From: Leuctra nigra
Taxonomy: Eukaryota; Arthropoda; Insecta; Plecoptera; Leuctridae
Assembly: GCA_934045905.1 (NCBI GenBank)
Contig: OW203768.1
Span: forward strand, 7,592,316 to 7,656,315
Direction of reading: 5' to 3'
DNA length: 64,000 nucleotides
Within the stretch, counting starts at the first letter, position 1. Every line of letters begins with the position of its first letter. The translations under genes were made by a program, and so were the position numbers. Below the pieces are notes generated by a model. The model was not told the origin of the DNA and made no database searches. It worked only from the letters and a program-made list of their open reading frames with translations. This document shows, piece by piece, positions 12,814-51,280 of this stretch.

Positions 12814-13137
12814 GAAATATTATGTTTTACCACCTACTCGATTTCCCCATGAGGCCCGACTTGTGTGCCTGTACCTGCGTACCTTTACCTGTAATATGCA
12901 AGGAGTGCCCAAATAAACAATTTTGCAACGACTTTTTTGTGGTTCGGTGTCCTCCTAACAACATGCGGATCCGGGGGCGCAGCCCCAAATATGTTTTGAA
13001 CTTCAGTTATACTTTTAGTGCGCTATTTGGGGTTTTGGTCTTTTACTCAAGCAGCTTGGTTTATATCATGGAGGACAGTGAATATTTAGTCGAAAAAATG
13101 TATATTCCCAAGACATATAATTTTCTGTTAATCTTAA

Positions 13138-13195
13138 TTGAGCGAGCGTAGCGAGCGTCACCACGGTACTCTTATGGCACTTTCTCTGTGTGTGT

Positions 13196-13229
<34 letters not shown>

Positions 13230-15101
13230 TGGTCACAGCCCAGGTCAAACCGCTCAAGCAATCGATCTGAAATTTTGTACACATACTAACGTACTCTATG
13301 CGGTCCCTGGGATCGTTTTTGAATGGGCTCCCGTGATTGGTTCAAATTTAAAAAAAAATATCTTTCGATTGGTTGCTTCGATCAATTTGAAATTTAGCAA
13401 AAACATTGCAACCAACATTGTACCCAATCATAAAAAGTTTCACCCAAATCCTCCTATTGGTTCAAATTTAAAACCATTTTTCATGTGATTTTTGACATTT
13501 AAACTAGAACAGATTGACCGATCAACTTAAAACTTCGCGTGGTCATTGGTACCAACATTTTAGGTATTTTTGCCAATTTTCAGTCTAATCTGTCGTTATT
13601 TTCAAAAGTTTTGTCATTTTAAGGTCATTTTATTCCATAATCTTGAAAAATGTTTACTAAATTGTCATCCCTGCCTTCTTTAAGCTTCTGTTCCAAGGCA
13701 AGGCCTGTAGAGCAGCCAAGCTATTCACATTGTACAGTAAAATGAAAGCATTTTTGAGCTAGCGCATAAAATCGGATGCAGTACGAAGGCCAAATCCTCT
13801 AATTGGTTTAAGTTTAAATAATGTCTTCTGATTGGTCGACAATAAAAATGTTCACATTAAGTTCAAATTTTGCATGGTGATCAAGACCAACTTAATATTA
13901 AATTTTACATATTGTTAGCCGAATCAGTCAAGTATTAATTGTAATTTTACGAGTTTAATATGGGATGTCACAAGAGATTTCTGGAGAAGATATGTAGGTA
14001 AGACTTCACGACACAATGGATCTGTTATTCATCCAGAGTATTATGGAGATTGAAAAATTGCAGAGAAAATCGTCTTGTGCCGTGTCGTGTATCTTTACTA
14101 TGGGGATGTTGCATGTTCTGTGCTCGCTCATCAACGCGTTACACTGAGCGTTTTCCTAGTAATCAGCGTATCAATTTATTTAACTAGGAAAACGCTCTGT
14201 GTAACGCGTTGATGAGCGAGCACGGACAGGCGCAACACCTCGAACCGAAATTATGTCTATCGAAAATATCATTAAAAGCCAATAATTTTTGAATTTCGTC
14301 AGACTCAAGTATAAAAATCTCAAAATTGTCCTAAAACATTAGTCCCAATAACCATGCAAAGCTTGAACCTTTTGAACCTTTCTGATTGAACTGTTCCTCG
14401 TTAATATTCAAAAATCACAAGATCTCTTAAAAAAAATACACCTGGGACCACTTATATGATAAAAGTGTGTGTACTTACACAATATTAGATCGATCTGTTG
14501 AATGGTTGAATATCAGTTTCATACGTTTGAAAGTTTCTACTCTTAACTACCTTGGAACTATAAAGAGTCGAAGTAGCCGTGATCAACATTTTCGAGATAT
14601 TTGACAGCCAACACGCAAAATGTCCGTAAAACGTCAATAACTTTTGGATTTAAACAAAGATTAGTCTGAAAATTGTCAAAAATGCAGATAATGTTAGTCC
14701 CAATGACCATGCAAAGTTTTAAGTTGATCAGTCATACGGTTCAAGTTTAAATTTAAAAAATGACATAAAAGATTTTTTTAAATTTTAACCAATGGGAGGA
14801 TTTAGCTGAAACTTTGTAAGATTGGGTACAATGTTGGTCGCCATGACTTGTCAAAATTTCAAATTGATCGGAACTACCAATCAAAAGATATTTTTTTTTA
14901 AATTTGAACCAATCACATGAGCCCGTTCAAAAACGATCCCAGGGACCGCATAGATTACGTTAGTATATGTGCAAAATTTCAGATCGATTGGTTGTGCCGT
15001 TTGACCTGGGCAGTGAACACAAAAAAAAAAAAAAAAAAAAAAAAAACACACAGAGAAAGTGCCGTAAGAGTACCGTGGTGACGCTCGCTACGCTCGCTCA
15101 A
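13138..15101. mobile_element. Giant foldback transposon (about 2 kb palindrome)
   Basis: The ends TTGAGCGAGCG and CGCTCGCTCAA are inverted and flanked by TAA at 13135-13137 and 15102-15104. The two arms, about 13138-14165 and 14193-15101, are inverse copies over most of their length, each with a long poly-T/poly-A run near its end (13199-13227 on the left). They meet at a short hinge between two copies of the AACGCGTTGATGAGCGAGC block. No transposase frame is visible. One arm-like half copy is at 34733-35636. Confidence 0.85.
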
Positions 15102-31182: not shown

Positions 31183-31450
31183 CTGGCTTAACGTCGCACT
31201 GTTCTGCAGCGAGGCTAATGGCGACGGATGAATGATTATGAGGATGATTGGGAGATGATGGTGAAGATTAGGTAAGGATGGAAGGTGGGAAGGAGGCGGT
31301 CGTGGCCTTTTAGTAGGGTACCTTCCCAGCATTTGCCTGTCGACTGAGGGAAAACCACGAAAAAACCCCAGTCAGGAAGGACGGCCGCGGGAATCGAACC
31401 CGGGCCTCCGGAGTATAATATGCCTCGGGGCAAACAGAGAACCACAGCAC
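31183..31450 (-). mobile_element. tRNA-derived SINE, minus copy
   Basis: Read on the minus strand it contains the B box GGGTTCGATTCCC (about 31391-31403), then TTCCTGACTGGGG, GGCAAATGCTGGGAAGGTAC and the 3' motif CAGAACAGTGCGACGTTAAG. It matches 36855-37136 along its length. Confidence 0.85.
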
Positions 31451-32730: not shown

Positions 32731-32954
32731 TGATTTACGCTGTTGGTTCCTCATGGCCTCGGGGCCCGACCGGTTCCGGACGATTCACTTGCACTGCTTG
32801 TCACCGTAGCTACAGTCAAATGACCAACCTCAAGACGCACATCAAGAACTTCTGTGGCAAAGAGCCGAGGTTTCAGTGTCCACATTGTCCGCACCGCGCC
32901 AAGCTCAAGACAGATATGATGCGTCATATCGATAGGAAGCATATTGACATTTAA
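32731..32954 (+). CDS. lola: lola-type two-finger alternative 3' exon
   Basis: The acceptor is TTATTATTTTCAG. A Gly/Pro/Ser linker (IYAVGSSWPRGPTGSGRF) precedes finger 1 (C2HC; RSYSQMTNL, KNFCGKEPRF) and finger 2 (C2H2; CPHCPHRAKLKTDMMRHIDRKH), then DI and TAA. Finger 1 ends F-C-G rather than E-C-G, the form that dominates downstream. It is the last finger exon before the non-finger module. Confidence 0.86.
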
Positions 32955-33082
32955 CAGCACTTGTTTTTAAATAGCTGGTAGAATGATGGTCATTTTGTAT
33001 ATTTCTTGACGATTGTTGGCGTGTAGTGCCGATGAATTAGTGTAGGTTCTAGTGCAAGTACATCATCACTTGTTTTGACTAT

Positions 33083-33137
33083 AAGCCGGTAGCGAGGCAC
33101 ATGTGTTACGGGGCTTGCCCTATACTCGCTACCGGTA
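33083..33137. repeat. Short inverted repeat
   Basis: AGCCGGTAGCGAG pairs with CTCGCTACCGG about 30 bases on, in the 3' flank of the preceding exon. Confidence 0.5.
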
Positions 33138-33690
33138 AGTGTACCTCTGTATGTATGTACATTTTAAAATAAATAATAATAATAATTTTCAGGAATTAGT
33201 AGATCGTCTTTCTTATTTTCTATAATTTTTCGATATTTCACGATGTGAGAGAAAGTAAAAGCCGAAAATAAGTATACGAATAAGAATAATAAGAATTAGT
33301 TTAAAGAATAATATATTTCGTAGAAGAAATAATGTGCATTGGAAATATTGACGTCAACCAAAAATAAATTATTTTAGATGGTTATCTGGTATGTTTTTTT
33401 TTTGCTAAAAACCATTTTATTGGAATTTCCTATTTTCTTTTCCGTGCTTGTGGAGGTGTTCTTTGGGGGGGAGGGGGAGGGGGGGTCTATTTTAAATGTA
33501 ATTTATATAAAGTTTGATTTGTTTTTAGCTCAATATGGCAGGTTTTGTCAGGTCTTTGAGCTTTTTTAATATTATAATATGATTGTATGTGTATTATTAC
33601 GATTGTCTCGGGGTACCTACTTATGAGTGATTCTAAAAAAAATCTGTGTATTGGCTGCTCTATTTTCTTTTAACAATGTTATTTTTCCAG

Positions 33691-33785
33691 GCTTCTATCA
33701 CACGGAAACGGTATACGTTCGCGAAGAAGCTTCGAGCAATCCTCTACCTTCCCAACCTATTGAAACTGAGAACTCCAACGCAAAT
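33691..33785 (+). CDS. Module exon 1
   Basis: The acceptor ATTTTTCCAG leaves two bases (GC) to complete the split codon. It encodes FYHTETVYVREEASS and a Pro/Ser/Glu-rich segment, then a GTACGT donor in phase 0. It contains no methionine. Confidence 0.7.
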
Positions 33786-36700
33786 GTACGTTCAATTCAA
33801 TTAAGAGTATCAATAAAATAGCATGCTTGGGTGCTACTCGGTGAATTTATCTAGTATTGACGCTTATAATTGTTGTAATTTTGCAGGAATTACGAATGCT
33901 GTTAAAAAGCCAACTTCCAATCCTTTCGAAGGCCACAGCTCTCACTGCGCCATTACGTCACAAGTTATGTAGCTGCATCGCCACTCATTTGTTAAAAGAT
34001 GATGCCCAAAGAACGTAAGTACCCACGTGACATGAATCCACTGGATTTTGATGTTTTGCTACTCGCATCGTATTATTAACTGTGATCATTTTAATCACTA
34101 GAATTGGAGAAAACGAGTACAGCCGGTGGACAGACGCCATTGTGACATTATTCCCAAGTGAAATTAAGGAAACTTATTTCATTCGATACAGAAAGGGACC
34201 TCCAAAAATCTCTGCAAAAGGAAAACTAGTAAATAGAGTCAATACTATAAAACGTTATCGAAAGGCTGATGACGCTGAAATGAATGCAGGTAAATCACTC
34301 CATCTGGAGGTCTATTCTAGAACGATTTTCCAATTCCATTCTGATGGAATTCAGTCACGGCCATAAGGATTAACATTGGATGGAATTGAATTCTAGTGGA
34401 ATTGGGAATTTAAAAGTTCTAGATTAGGGCCCCTGATTTTTCAAGTAATATGTTGCCTATTACAATTTCAATAAATAAATTTTTCCTCAATTTTTGTAGA
34501 AATTGAAGGACAGGCCAACGAATCGTGTTCCACTGAGAACATCTTGCCCGAGATAGATACAGATGGTTTCGTCTCCTTCCTGCTAACTGACTTTGAGCCT
34601 TGGCAGAAGGTTATCAAGTACTGGTCCATCACGTCAGCTTCTAGAAGAGATGTTGACAAAAACTTGACCGTTGCTGAAGTCTGTAACAAATATCCGGCCT
34701 TGCAACAGCATCTAGGATATACCTTGGTAGGTTACTAGGAAAACGCTCTGAGTAACGCGTTGATGAGCGAGCACGGATACGCGCAACACCTCGAACCGAA
34801 ATTATGTTTATCGAAAATGTCCTTAAAAGCCAATAATTCTTGAATTTCGTCACAGACTTGTATGAAAATCTCCAACAATTCCTAAAATATTGGTCCCAAT
34901 AACCACGCAAAGTTTTAAGTTGATCGATTGAACCTTTATGATTGAACGATTCCTTGTTAATTTCCAAAAATCACAGGATATCGTTCAAAAAAATGTTAAA
35001 CGGTCATATCAGTTTCATAATACGTTTGAAAGTTTCTGCTCTTACAACCTTGAAGTGAAGATTCGAAGATTCCGTGAAATATGAAATTCGAGAAATATGA
35101 TAGCCAACACGCAAAATATCCGTAAACTGTCGATAACTTTTGAATTTAAACACAGTTTAGTCTGAAAATTGTCAAAAATACAGATAATGTTGGACCCGAT
35201 GACCATACAAAATTTTAAGTTGATCGGTCAAACGGTTCTGGATGAAATTTCAAAAAGCACATGAAATATTTTTTTAAATTTTAACCAATGGGAGGATTTG
35301 GCTGAAAATTTGTAAAATAAGAGACAATGTTGGTCCTAATGACCATGCAAAATATAAGGTCGATCACATTTGTCGAAGTCCATTTTCATTTTTCAGCCTA
35401 TCAGGAGATGTTTAATTAAATTTCAACCAATAAATGGATTTCAAAAAAATTTGGGTCTGCAAACAGAGAAGGTTGGTTTTACATGTGTGCAAAATTTCAG
35501 ATCGATCGGTGAAACGGTGCGACCTGTGTATCGGCTATTAGCAGCCAAACAAAAAACAAAAACAAAAACAAAACAAAAAAAAAACAGAGGTCCGTGCCAA
35601 AAGAGCCAAAAGGAGACGCTCGCTTCGCTCGCTCAATCACCGTGGATATCATCTGTAATAAATGAACCTTACATTCTGATAATTATTCAAGTCATAATAT
35701 AGTTCAGAGATGATGAATGGAAACTGTTGAATGATTACATAGACAATCTCTTGGGGTTTGTTTGGACATTTATGTCTTCCTTCCTGAATATGGCCAAGAG
35801 CCTGTAAGAACCCCACCACAAATTTAATTTGTCAATAAAAAATATGATTTAAATGTCATTTACTTTTACCCACGCCATGTTAAGATGTATTTTATATTTC
35901 AGCTTGAGCTTGATTTCGAATCTCTATACGCGGATCGCGGAAACCGGCTTCTGGCTGAATGGCCCAAACTGGCGCCGGCTGTACTCACCTTGGCCAAAGC
36001 CAGACGCAGGAATCCTCAGCTTCAGACTCTTTTGAACAACTTTGCAAATATTCGTAAGTTCATTTTTGTAGAATTTAAAATTATTTGTACTCTCTAAAAT
36101 AATAAAAAAAAAATATATAGGTATTGGTTCCATCGTTCAAATGGAAACACTAATGGCCCATGCATAATTGACGCAGACGCAGTCACGTTCATCTGTGGCC
36201 ATCACAGTGAATTAATTTTCGTGCACGTCCATTGTGCCTGTGAATTTACCCTTCACAGTGTCAAACTATGTGCCCATCGCTTTGTGAAAAGAAACATTTG
36301 TAGAAGTTTCAAGTCCTCTTCCCATCATGATCGTGTAAGTGTTGTTTCGCAGTGGACAGCGACGTCCTGGCGTTCATCGTCCTGCCCTACATGTTCCCGG
36401 TGATCACGTTGAAGAGGTACACGACGACGCAAGGCGCAGAAGCGGAGACCACAACGTCGGCGTGGCGGCCGAGCCAACTGGAGTCACAGGAGGGCTTCGT
36501 CATTCATCTCCACGTGAGTTTATACAATGCTGTTCATACGGATTCACGGCCCCTGACGTCAGACGAAACAATGTAATAAACTGACGTTGCAGATTGAATG
36601 CTATTTAATTCCGAAGGACGTCACTTTGACGTCACGCTCGATTATACGAGCACTCGAACTATCTCAAAAATACGAGTCCCGAATGCTGGATTCGATCTCA

Positions 36701-37727
36701 TGCCAGTTGGTTTACGGGCGTTTTTCCACATTTGACATGTCTTTTTCATTATATCCGGACATTTTCACTAGCTGTTCCCACCATTCTCTATATAGACTCT
36801 CTCTATTCTCTCTATAAAGAGAGTGCTCTCTTATAGCTCTCATAGTCTGTTTACGGAACAGGTTGGGTGAGTGGTAACGCTCTCAACTTGTATTCCGGAG
36901 GCCCGGGTTCGATTCCCGCGGCCGTTCTTCCTGACTGGGTTTTTTTCGGGGTTTTCCCTCTGTCTATCGATAGGCAAATGCTGGGAAGGTACCCTACTAA
37001 TAGGCCACGACCGCCTCCTTCCCACCTTCCATCCTTACCTACTATTCACCATCATCTCCCAAACATCATCATAATCATTCATCCGTCGCCATTAGCGTCG
37101 CTGCAGAACAGTGCGACGTTAAGCCCCTGACAAAAAAATAGTCTGTTTTCCGGGCCCTTTCACTTGTTTATACGGCTTTTTAGCCCAAAGTCCACCTCTG
37201 AAAGTTGTATATCTCTTAGAACCCCCAAAAAACACTGTATATAAATATTAGCTTTTCTCTGTCCGAAAAAATCGACACCGAAAGGTCCGGGGATTATAGC
37301 ATCATAATTCTGCCTAAGTCAATAAGCAATGCAACACTTAGAAAATGTATGTAGGTATACGAAGAGTTTCGATTGATTTCAGACTGCGGAGGAACTGCAA
37401 ACTCGTTTGGATGAGAGGCAAGAGAAGTTCCGAAGTCTTCAGCGAACCATCCAACCTTACGTCGTCGCTGTTGGGAACAAAGGATGCAGTTCTTTCTACG
37501 CCGTCATCGACAAGACCGTGTACAAGCTGGACTCCATCGCCAGAGCTGTGGACATCTGTTTCAAATCAATCTTTGCACTTCAAACAACATTTCCTCCTGA
37601 GTCCAAGATGGTCTGGTTCTGGATTCAGAAATACATCTATAAGATCAGTACAGTGAATGATGTCCAGTATTCTTCTGCCAACTCTCTTTCCTCTGATATT
37701 GAAAGTATACTGCAAAATCAAGTTTAA
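33691..37727 (+). CDS. Seven-exon non-zinc-finger alternative C-terminal module in the lola array
   Basis: Exons are 33691-33785, 33887-34014, 34102-34289, 34500-34726, 35903-36053, 36353-36513 and 37383-37727. All junctions are GT-AG and every phase matches, giving about 431 residues with no stop until TAA 37725-37727. Exon 1 enters through a phase-1 acceptor, like the finger exons, and starts FYHTETV, echoing the FYG start of three downstream finger exons. It has no ATG, so an upstream exon must supply the start. The protein has no C2H2 or C2HC finger. It has a basic stretch in exon 3 (YRKGPPKISAKGKLVNRV), a segment LTVAEVCNKYPALQQHLGYT, and a C-terminal block with QPYVVAVG, VIDKTVYKLDS, DICFKSIFALQ and PPESKMVWFWIQKYIYKI. 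From memory this resembles a family of uncharacterised animal proteins, but I cannot verify that. Function unknown. It could instead be a nested gene with an unseen first exon. Confidence 0.72.
33887..34014 (+). CDS. Module exon 2
   Basis: Acceptor TAATTTTGCAG. It encodes ELRMLLKSQLPILSK, TAPLRHKLCSCIATHLLK and DDAQR, and ends in phase 2 at a GTAAGT donor. The helical pattern and basic residues suggest a small folded unit. Confidence 0.75.
34102..34289 (+). CDS. Module exon 3
   Basis: Acceptor TTTTAATCACTAG. It encodes IGENEYSRWTDAIVTLFPSE, a KETYFIRYRKGPPK motif and a Lys/Arg-rich end. The donor GTAAAT follows one base into a codon (phase 1). Confidence 0.78.
34307..34432. mobile_element. 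MITE, copy 1, in the module's third intron
   Basis: Ends GGTCTATTCTAGAACG and the approximate inverse GTTCTAGATTAGGGC surround GGCCATAAGGATTAA. A close copy is at 37889-38012. Confidence 0.7.
34500..34726 (+). CDS. Module exon 4
   Basis: Acceptor TTTTTGTAG. It encodes an acidic start, DTDGFVSFLLTDFEPWQKVI, KYWSITSASRRDVDKN and LTVAEVCNKYPALQQHLGYT. The donor GTAGGT is in phase 0. A foldback half-element starts about six bases inside the intron. Confidence 0.78.
34733..35636. mobile_element. Half copy of the giant foldback transposon
   Basis: It matches 14193-15101 from ACTAGGAAAACGCTCT to CGCTCGCTTCGCTCGCTCAA. It sits in the module's fourth intron, starting about six bases after the exon 4 donor. 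Confidence 0.8.
35903..36053 (+). CDS. Module exon 5
   Basis: Acceptor TTATATTTCAG, phase 0. It encodes LELDFESLYADRGNRLLAEW, PKLAPAVLTLAKARRR and LLNNFAN. Donor GTAAGT in phase 1. Confidence 0.78.
36353..36513 (+). CDS. Module exon 6
   Basis: Acceptor GTTGTTTCGCAG. It encodes DSDVLAFIVLPYMFPVITLK, a Thr/Ala-rich loop and QEGFVIHLH. Donor GTGAGT in phase 0. The DNA is GC-richer than its flanks. Confidence 0.78.
36855..37136 (+). mobile_element. tRNA-derived SINE, plus copy
   Basis: A tRNA-like head (GGTTGGGTGAGTGGTAACGC, B box GGGTTCGATTCCC at about 36904-36916) is followed by the family body and a CAGTGCGACGTTAAG 3' end with an A-rich tail. It lies in the module's sixth intron. Confidence 0.85.
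37383..37727 (+). CDS. Module exon 7 (terminal)
   Basis: Acceptor GATTGATTTCAG, phase 0. It encodes TAEELQTRLDERQEKFRSLQ, QPYVVAVGNKGCSSFYAVID, the aromatic C-terminal block (VWFWIQKYIYKI) and a Ser-rich end, stopping at TAA. It carries the strongest family-like pattern of the module. Confidence 0.8.
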   Translation, partial: TAEELQTRLDERQEKFRSLQRTIQPYVVAVGNKGCSSFYAVIDKTVYKLDSIARAVDICFKSIFALQTTFPPESKMVWFWIQKYIYKISTVNDVQYSSANSLSSDIESILQNQV

Positions 37728-37888
37728 AGTAGCTCGACATTTTTGCAATTGCGAACAAAATGTAGGAACTAGCAGTGTAGAAGTGTACTATTATACCTAC
37801 TTTTGAATCTAGTAATTTGATCACTAGATAATTATTAGGCACATAAGGTGCCTTGATTCTGTCAAACTCAAGTTTGTAAACCATCAGG

Positions 37889-38012
37889 AGGTCTATTCTA
37901 GAACGATTTCCCAATTCCATTCTGATGGAATTCGGTCACGGCCATAAGGATTAAAATTGCATGGAATCGAATTCCATCAGAATTGGGAAGGTAAATGTTA
38001 TAGAATATGGCT
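37889..38012. mobile_element. MITE, copy 2, just downstream of the module
   Basis: Nearly the same as 34307-34432, including GGCCATAAGGATTAA. The two bracket the 3' half of the module. Confidence 0.7.
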
Positions 38013-38057
38013 CCAGCCGTGTTAAATCTTATCTTAACTTGTCATCAATAATTCTTA

Positions 38058-38194: not shown

Positions 38195-38922
38195 ATATGA
38201 CATAAGTTTTTATGAATTGATAAATATTTAATTACTAATTTTTGTAATGGGTATTTTTTTAATTTCGTTAAGTGTAGTTCATTGGTCATGGTATCAAGTG
38301 CAGTGTCTTAACATGTTCAATGTTAATTACTTCCCATAGTATTTTAATTAAGATTTGTCATAGACACTAAAATAATATGTATATATTATTCCAAGTTAAT
38401 TAATATTTATGTATGTGTAAAAGTGTCGATGAAATCATGTAACGTAACACTAATAAAATAATAAAGTTTATAGCAGTATAGTTTTATTGAGCATATATAC
38501 AAATATATTGAATAGTTAATCTTCCATACATCCATTTCTCTTCTTCATCTTATTCATCCGTGTGTTTTTCTGTTCCAAACACTCAATTTCTTGGGTTATT
38601 CAGCTGTGTATTACACTGTACAATTAATTTGAAGCCTTTAGCATGAGTTCAACGATTAAAGTTTCAACATTACACACCTTCAACACTTAAACTGCTTGAG
38701 AGCAATCATGAACCGTCTATTTCGAGCGTATTTTAGTAAACAATTGTACAATAATGAGCATGTTTAGATTTTCAGAGCAGTCTTTCGCCCAAGGGTGTCT
38801 AGCGTAGTGTATACTTAGTCCGCCTAAACGTTATCCAATCTCTGCATTTTGTGTGTGTGGTAAACACTTTGATGTGTTGAAATCATTTTCTGCAGAGTTT
38901 TAAGAATATTTTTCTTTTTCAG

Positions 38923-39143
38923 GTTCGTTTGGTCACGTTCGGCTTTCCGGAAAGGAGCGTTTTTACTGTCCGCAATGCAACGCAAGTTACAGTAATTATT
39001 TCAACATGACAACACATGTGAGACTTTACTGTGGCAAACCGCCTCGGTTTAAATGTCCACTTTGCAGCTACGGCAGCAAACTGAAGACTGATCTTCATCG
39101 ACATATTGCTCGGTGGCATTGCGAACTTTTGGAAACATCTTAG
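38923..39143 (+). CDS. lola: lola-type two-finger alternative 3' exon
   Basis: After TTCTTTTTCAG the frame reads GSFGHVRLSGKERFYC. Finger 1 is C2HC (ASYSNYFNM, RLYCGKPPRF); finger 2 is C2H2 (CPLCSYGSKLKTDLHRHIARWH). The tail CELLETS ends at TAG. There is no start codon near the acceptor, so ATG-based searches would miss it. It is the first exon of the 'ERFYCPxC' type, which dominates downstream. Confidence 0.85.
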
Positions 39144-50472: not shown

Positions 50473-50735
50473 TTTTCTATGGAGCAAACCGTGATGCCTG
50501 CACATCTTCATTCTCAAGTGCAGATGAATCTGAGCGCTTCTACTGCCCGAACTGCAACACTGCATACAAGAGCAAATACAGCATGACTCATCACCTCAAG
50601 ATGTTCTGTGGAAAACTTCCACAATATCGCTGTCACTTCTGTCATTATACGAGCAAACTGAAGACCAATGTCCAACGCCATATGAGTCGGCGTCATAAGT
50701 CAACTCTTGATGGATCAATGAGTTCATTATTTTAG
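50473..50735 (+). CDS. lola: lola-type two-finger exon, FYG family
   Basis: TTTCTTTCTGTTTCAG opens VFYGANRDACTSSF and an acidic linker to ERFYC. Finger 1 is C2HC (TAYKSKYSM, KMFCGKLPQY); finger 2 is C2H2 (CHFCHYTSKLKTNVQRHMSRRH). A Ser-rich tail (KSTLDGSMSSLF) ends at TAG 50733-50735. It begins FYG like the exons at 51063 and 51899, with which it forms a tandem trio. Confidence 0.86.
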
Positions 50736-51062: not shown

Positions 51063-51280
51063 GTTTCTATGGAATCTCAGGTTCATCAGAAAATGGCCGA
51101 TTTTACTGTCCGAAGTGCAATGTTGGATACAAGACCAAGAAGAACATGACTCGGCATTTGAAGGACTTTTGTGGGAAACCACCGCGGTTTCAGTGTCATC
51201 TTTGTCCTTATGAAAGCAAACTGAAGACAAATCTTTATCGTCATATTAATGTGCGCCATCCGCATCAAAATGTCTACTGA
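51063..51280 (+). CDS. lola: lola-type two-finger exon, FYG family
   Basis: TTTTTCTTTTCCAG opens GFYGISGSSENGRFYC. Finger 1 is C2HC (VGYKTKKNM, KDFCGKPPRF); finger 2 is C2H2 (CHLCPYESKLKTNLYRHINVRH); PHQNVY and TGA follow. It is the middle member of the FYG trio. It has no ATG near the acceptor. Confidence 0.86.

Follow-up and report, generated by a model that had tools for sequence, protein, structure and literature searches.

Can a gene that varies its protein by exchanging C-terminal endings acquire a new ending from an unrelated gene? This question is raised by a stretch of 64,000 nucleotides from the stonefly Leuctra nigra (contig OW203768.1, here C7:7592316-7656315; "the window"), which belongs to the lola locus. 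Together with mod(mdg4), lola is the best documented insect locus making many proteins by swaps of this kind. A first-pass annotation had proposed that one ending within the zinc-finger exon array of the window is a multi-exon domain of a different nature, perhaps captured from elsewhere. Our analysis leads to a similar answer: a piece of another gene was probably captured and became a selectable Lola C-terminus, and the resulting BTB fusion would act as an adaptor.

The candidate ending, called the module below, consists of seven + strand exons at positions 33691-37727 of the window. Exon chaining and Pfam searches confirmed the annotation's description of seven phase-matched exons with GT-AG junctions that encode about 431 residues and no finger. 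All seven exons are open, all twelve intron ends are GT-AG, and the phases at entry and exit of each exon (1/0, 0/2, 2/1, 1/0, 0/1, 1/0 and 0/stop) are compatible, giving 431 open residues and a TAA stop. No zinc finger was found in the module, either in its sequence or with Pfam. Exon 1 (33691..33785, GT-AG) is entered in phase 1 and left in phase 0. It encodes the linker GFYHTETVYVREEASSNPLPSQPIETENSNAN, whose first G is shared with the donor exon, and contains no ATG; no in-frame ATG was found upstream of exon 2.

The annotation had also suspected a real conserved family and had asked for a BLASTP search with the module alone. Run as a protein search, this gave one relative, the hypothetical protein ACI65C_006435 of the aphid Semiaphis heraclei (P0001; E 1.7e-11). 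The only addition from a profile search was P0002, a fragment of 193 residues near-identical to part of P0001. One protein search used a region shifted by 12 residues, omitting the last 13 residues of the module. P0001 is 29% identical to the module on the alignment used, with a gap covering module exons 5-6, and its N-terminus is a SAM domain (Pfam E 1.5e-5).

Searching the L. nigra genome itself resulted in 35 matches at E <=1. Six of them are the module. The remaining 29 are spread over about 25 places, and any single one with E above about 0.05 is doubtful. Among the matches listed, the nearest paralog is located on contig C2 (1.264-1.308 Mb, - strand), and its spliced product shares 145/404 residues with the module (36% identity, E 4e-87) in a two-sequence comparison. 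Exon 2 (33887..34014) is homologous to an exon of this C2 copy, with the following intron at the same position and in the same phase. Exon 3 (34102..34289) matches the C2 copy and P0001 (E 0.002 alone), exon 4 (34500..34726) matches P0001 and paralogs on both C2 and C6, and exons 5 (35903..36053) and 6 (36353..36513) match these two paralogs. Exon 7 (37383..37727, TAA at 37725-37727) is the best-matching part, with 41% identity to the C2 copy (E 2.5e-24) and an E value of 1e-10 against P0001.

The introns are shared as well. All five domain introns are phase-identical between the module and the C2 copy; four occupy the same alignment column, and the remaining one is shifted by three columns within a gapped linker. 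As read, both sequences also have a phase-0 intron separating linker from domain. In the C6 gene, phase-matched introns are found at three of the five places (two exact, one two columns off); a further intron, located in the linker, is displaced by 19 columns, and one more is peculiar to this gene. The homology to the C2 paralog and the same intron phases exclude chance for exons 2-7; exon 1 lacks a homolog and is supported by its splice sites. The suspected family is thus borne out by P0001 and the paralogs in the same genome, and by these comparisons the module is a member of an intron-rich, SAM-partnered domain family.

Pfam reported nothing above cut-offs for the module (one sub-cut-off match, E 0.17) and two matches, both far below cut-off, for the C2 copy (E 0.033 and 0.083). 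There was no match for the module in NCBIfam. A PDB sequence search likewise gave none, while the same search with the C2 copy produced two weak hits (E 0.7 and 0.87). An AlphaFold2 model of exon 7, built from two sequences, had a mean pLDDT (predicted local distance difference test) of 52.9, too low to define a fold. The domain may resemble the C-terminal region of vertebrate SAMD3-like proteins. The C2 copy has a SAM-like stretch upstream, a weak match (E 0.05) that Pfam does not detect, and therefore the SAM feature is perhaps not general in the family.

Some further features of the family were noted. Matches to BTB and the module, among those listed, fall on C1-C13 of 144 contigs (536 Mb). 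Contigs C5, C9 and C13 hold six family matches with nearly equal scores, perhaps a recent spread of the family; the one that was read retains parts of exons 4, 5 and 6, still separated by introns. Behind the stop codons of the family genes on C2 (about 1264.28 kb, -) and C6 (L035 2783-2901), a C2H2-like frame opens after about 25-70 bases. These new frames start with MPSCYICGSK... and MYFCYYCKRT..., their Pfam finger matches are below cut-off, and they perhaps represent tandem genes or two-frame units.

The introns also bear on the origin of the module. Since they are common to the module and the C2 copy, a piece of genomic DNA, not an mRNA, seems to have been copied. The module looks like a DNA-level copy, and an origin as a retrocopy was rejected on the same grounds. 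A viral origin was discarded too, as none of 83 pattern matches in viral contigs proved a relative by tblastn. No copy closer than that on C2 is present among the matches listed, and the event would therefore not be recent unless the source was lost. The claim that a gene piece was captured into the lola array is well supported by these alignments: the module and another gene family share a homology that includes the introns. No second copy of the module was detected in the window by tblastn.

Repeats inside and behind the module also have copies elsewhere in the window: they lie at 36888-37125 and 31185-31418 (about 93% identical), at 34734-35637 and 13137-14847 (70-84%), and at 34300-34433 and 37881-38014 (87%). 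The last pair was considered as the vehicle of capture and rejected, because exons 1-3 lie outside it.

The retained sequence hints at a module that is still in use. Columns invariant in at least three relatives were counted as conserved, and 30/39 of these are kept in the module, 30/38 in the C2 copy and 30/39 in the C6 copy. In a maximum likelihood tree, the C6 copy and P0001 group apart (support 99), and the branch of the module (0.63) is shorter than that of the C2 copy (0.81). Both tree and counts are modest evidence, as the set comprises four sequences, one of which lacks a quarter of the domain. This pattern is unlike decay and suggests that the module is still used, since it has kept conserved residues like its relatives and has the shorter branch. 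One could instead regard the module as a silent or decaying paralog that sits unused in the array, in which case exon 1 would be read by chance. In favour of this, exon 1 lacks a homolog, and stops interrupt a related stretch at C13:49.25 Mb. But seven open exons and twelve GT-AG ends in a sequence only 36% identical to its nearest kin listed, invariant residues retained as in the other copies, and the shorter branch all speak against such a silent copy, which we consider quite improbable.

We next turn to the locus that surrounds the captured piece. The assignment to lola was correct: two lola BTB exons are located at C7 7.293-7.295 Mb, on the + strand of the same contig and ~298 kb upstream of the window. 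They are 67% and 80% identical to a fly lola BTB sequence over 54 residues each. The assembled common part has 310 residues including the split last codon (Pfam BTB E 7.6e-25). We read 304 kb of C7, leaving out 76 kb between 7.496 and 7.572 Mb, and found only one other BTB exon, on the opposite strand just upstream of lola. This exon (stretch L009 4799-4996, -) is of the same type as those of lola.

Around the module, a loose finger pattern matched 45 open reading frames (ORFs) on the + strand and 11 on the - strand of the window. We used 39 of the 45 and dropped six that were short, off-frame or acceptor-less, although one of these, ORF 9895, does resemble a finger. A usable phase-1 acceptor precedes 37 of the 39; ORF 5690 has no phase-1 AG and ORF 60568 only a poor one. 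The first-pass figure of 41 finger exons, all entered in phase 1, was therefore close, but neither the count nor the "all" was exact. Over the 304 kb, the finger pattern occurs in 205 ORFs on the + strand and one on the - strand; an array-type acceptor precedes 174 of the 205 and is in phase 1 in 166 cases. The whole lola array (C7 about 7.299-7.663 Mb) is far larger than that of the fly. At C7:7493597-7494643, the last finger of one finger exon recurs behind it in seven tandem copies, each terminated by a stop (MFECGILPQFPC...).

The common part of lola ends with ...GGEGSSSQ G/GTAACT, a phase-1 donor that fits the phase-1 entry at 33691. We therefore predict that it can be spliced to the module, with the junction ...GGEGSSSQ-GFYHTETVY, to yield a BTB fusion of 309 + 431 = 740 residues without a finger. 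The splice grammar, with donor and acceptor both in phase 1, thus allows the proposed fusion isoform, whose RNA and protein are predictions.

Exon 1 provides the link to the array, and its acceptor was compared with those of the finger exons by a weight matrix built from the array's own acceptors, the array sites being scored leave-one-out. The acceptor at 33691 scores 10.7; among 2981 AGs it ranks within the top 1.34%, and it is the best AG in 32960-33886. This score is at the array median: 21/38 array sites reach >=10.7, one of them as a tie, and two near-identical duplicates among the sites have flattered leave-one-out scores. With the same matrix, lower scores (-8.3 to 9.8) are obtained for all six acceptors inside the module. 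With a matrix rebuilt from 37 sites and used without leave-one-out, the acceptor at 33691 scores 9.6, a value reached by 36/37 array sites and also by 17 non-array AGs of the window, including the acceptor of exon 5 of the module. Of 3000 random positions, none had a phase-matched first exon of equal quality in the 900 nucleotides upstream. Acceptor scoring and phase thus confirmed the earlier statement that exon 1, which lacks an ATG, is entered through a phase-1 acceptor typical of the array.

The annotation had further seen an echo of the FYG exons in the FYHTE start of exon 1, and this impression held. The FY start is shared with array exons (GFYG at 51063 and 51899, VFYG at 50473), and the acceptor region of exon 1 is closest to that of the FYG exon at 51063. 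Their score of 29 equals the maximum of 995 random AGs; for array acceptors, the median score with the best partner is 28, and 29 is attained in 2.1% of 666 array pairs.

Several observations weigh against a lola ending made from a captured, SAM-partnered gene piece. With a looser acceptor cut, a matching first exon is present at 3.5% of 1500 random positions. The codon score of exon 1 is reached by 21% of 8324 open noncoding stretches, and another of its frames has a higher coding score. Coding score is a weak measure here, because exons 2 and 3 score about as low. The SAM partnership is read from one aphid protein, P0001, and may not hold more widely. Protein searches gave no protein combining BTB with the module domain, this species perhaps not being covered by them. 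Finally, a separate protein could start at an in-frame ATG at 33896, inside exon 2. The module would then be a nested independent gene with its own promoter, a family member lacking both SAM and BTB, much as relatives exist outside lola in this genome. Such a gene would make exon 1 pointless, yet this exon has an array-type acceptor and a phase that fits on both sides. Moreover, no SAM match is present in the window (tblastn with P0001), and the product would be left without an N-terminal assembly domain. We regard a nested gene as unlikely.

Distance is a further difficulty for the splicing of BTB to the module, as the common donor lies 331 kb upstream of the acceptor at 33691 and well over a hundred other array-type acceptors are situated within the locus. 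In a variant of the BTB fusion, the module would have a promoter of its own and would be linked to the lola BTB part by trans-splicing only. Precedents are on record: excerpts of PMC12692577 state that trans-splicing generates all mod(mdg4) mRNAs, independent promoters driving the 3' exons, and excerpts of PMC1947980 state that fly lola uses both cis- and trans-splicing. The single orientation of the finger ORFs on C7 also fits cis-splicing, and joining by trans-splicing only is a possibility that we hold as tentative.

Our preferred reading, capture of a gene piece as a Lola ending, can be put as follows. Genomic DNA with the last six exons and the introns of a SAM-partnered family gene would have entered the lola 3' exon array, where an array-type phase-1 acceptor and a short linker exon made the captured piece a selectable C-terminus. 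The common region (BTB, linker and phase-1 donor) would be spliced to 33691 in cis or, as in Drosophila, in trans, and, if expressed as we infer, the product would be the finger-less protein of 740 residues. Its BTB domain would occupy the N-terminal place of an assembly domain that SAM holds in the aphid relative, and would join mixed oligomers with finger-bearing Lola isoforms. The captured domain would bring its own partner or effector activity to sites chosen by the finger isoforms. According to excerpts of PMC11426971, TTK-type BTB domains, LOLA included, form hexamers and interact widely within the group. Heteromers of the three finger-less fly Lola isoforms with other isoforms are described as theoretically possible in excerpts of PMC1947980. 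From these two points and the place of SAM that BTB would take, the isoform is most likely an adaptor that would join Lola complexes without contributing a finger.

The module is framed by ordinary array exons. The preceding one (32731..32951, +) and the following one (38923..39140, +) each encode two fingers and have a phase-1 acceptor. Between the TAA and the next array acceptor at 38923, two AATAAA words are located at 38452..38465 (+; starts at 38452 and 38460), which are candidate poly(A) signals by sequence match only. ATTAAA words also occur at 37950 and 38655.

If the capture is real, arrays of alternative exons would be landing sites for new fusion proteins while the old ones are retained. 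An intact foreign multi-exon ending would show a second route by which such loci grow, gene capture besides duplication, and would provide a Lola isoform without DNA-binding fingers. Independent of the module, this locus, with 166 finger endings counted over the 304 kb read, would stand out as an extreme example of how a single gene can diversify a transcription factor.

Among known systems, the alternative endings of lola and mod(mdg4) come closest. As in L. nigra, Drosophila lola splices a single BTB common part to one of many 3' ends; excerpts of PMC11426971 give C2H2 fingers for 17/20 isoforms, and those of PMC1947980 three isoforms without fingers. In contrast to the finger-bearing fly endings, one ending is here a seven-exon module homologous to another gene family, and the array is far larger. 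Likewise, mod(mdg4) combines a BTB part with many alternative 3' ends, some of them without the usual domain. FLYWCH is present in 26/31 D. melanogaster endings, which arose by duplication (excerpts of PMC4667647), whereas in L. nigra an intron-bearing piece of another gene fills the slot. The aphid protein P0001 has the same domain, but with an N-terminal SAM domain that the module lacks and in place of which it would gain BTB. Transposase-capture fusions in host genomes join a foreign domain to a host regulator through phase-matched splicing. The module differs from these in that its domain shows no sign of a transposase in Pfam, has kept its introns and joins an existing array of alternatives. 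In a title-level literature search, with subscription journals mostly outside it, none of the titles listed described the capture of a foreign module by a locus of the lola or mod(mdg4) type. On the whole, we lean towards the view that a BTB locus captured several exons and introns of an unrelated gene as a selectively kept ending, with the SAM partner swapped for BTB.

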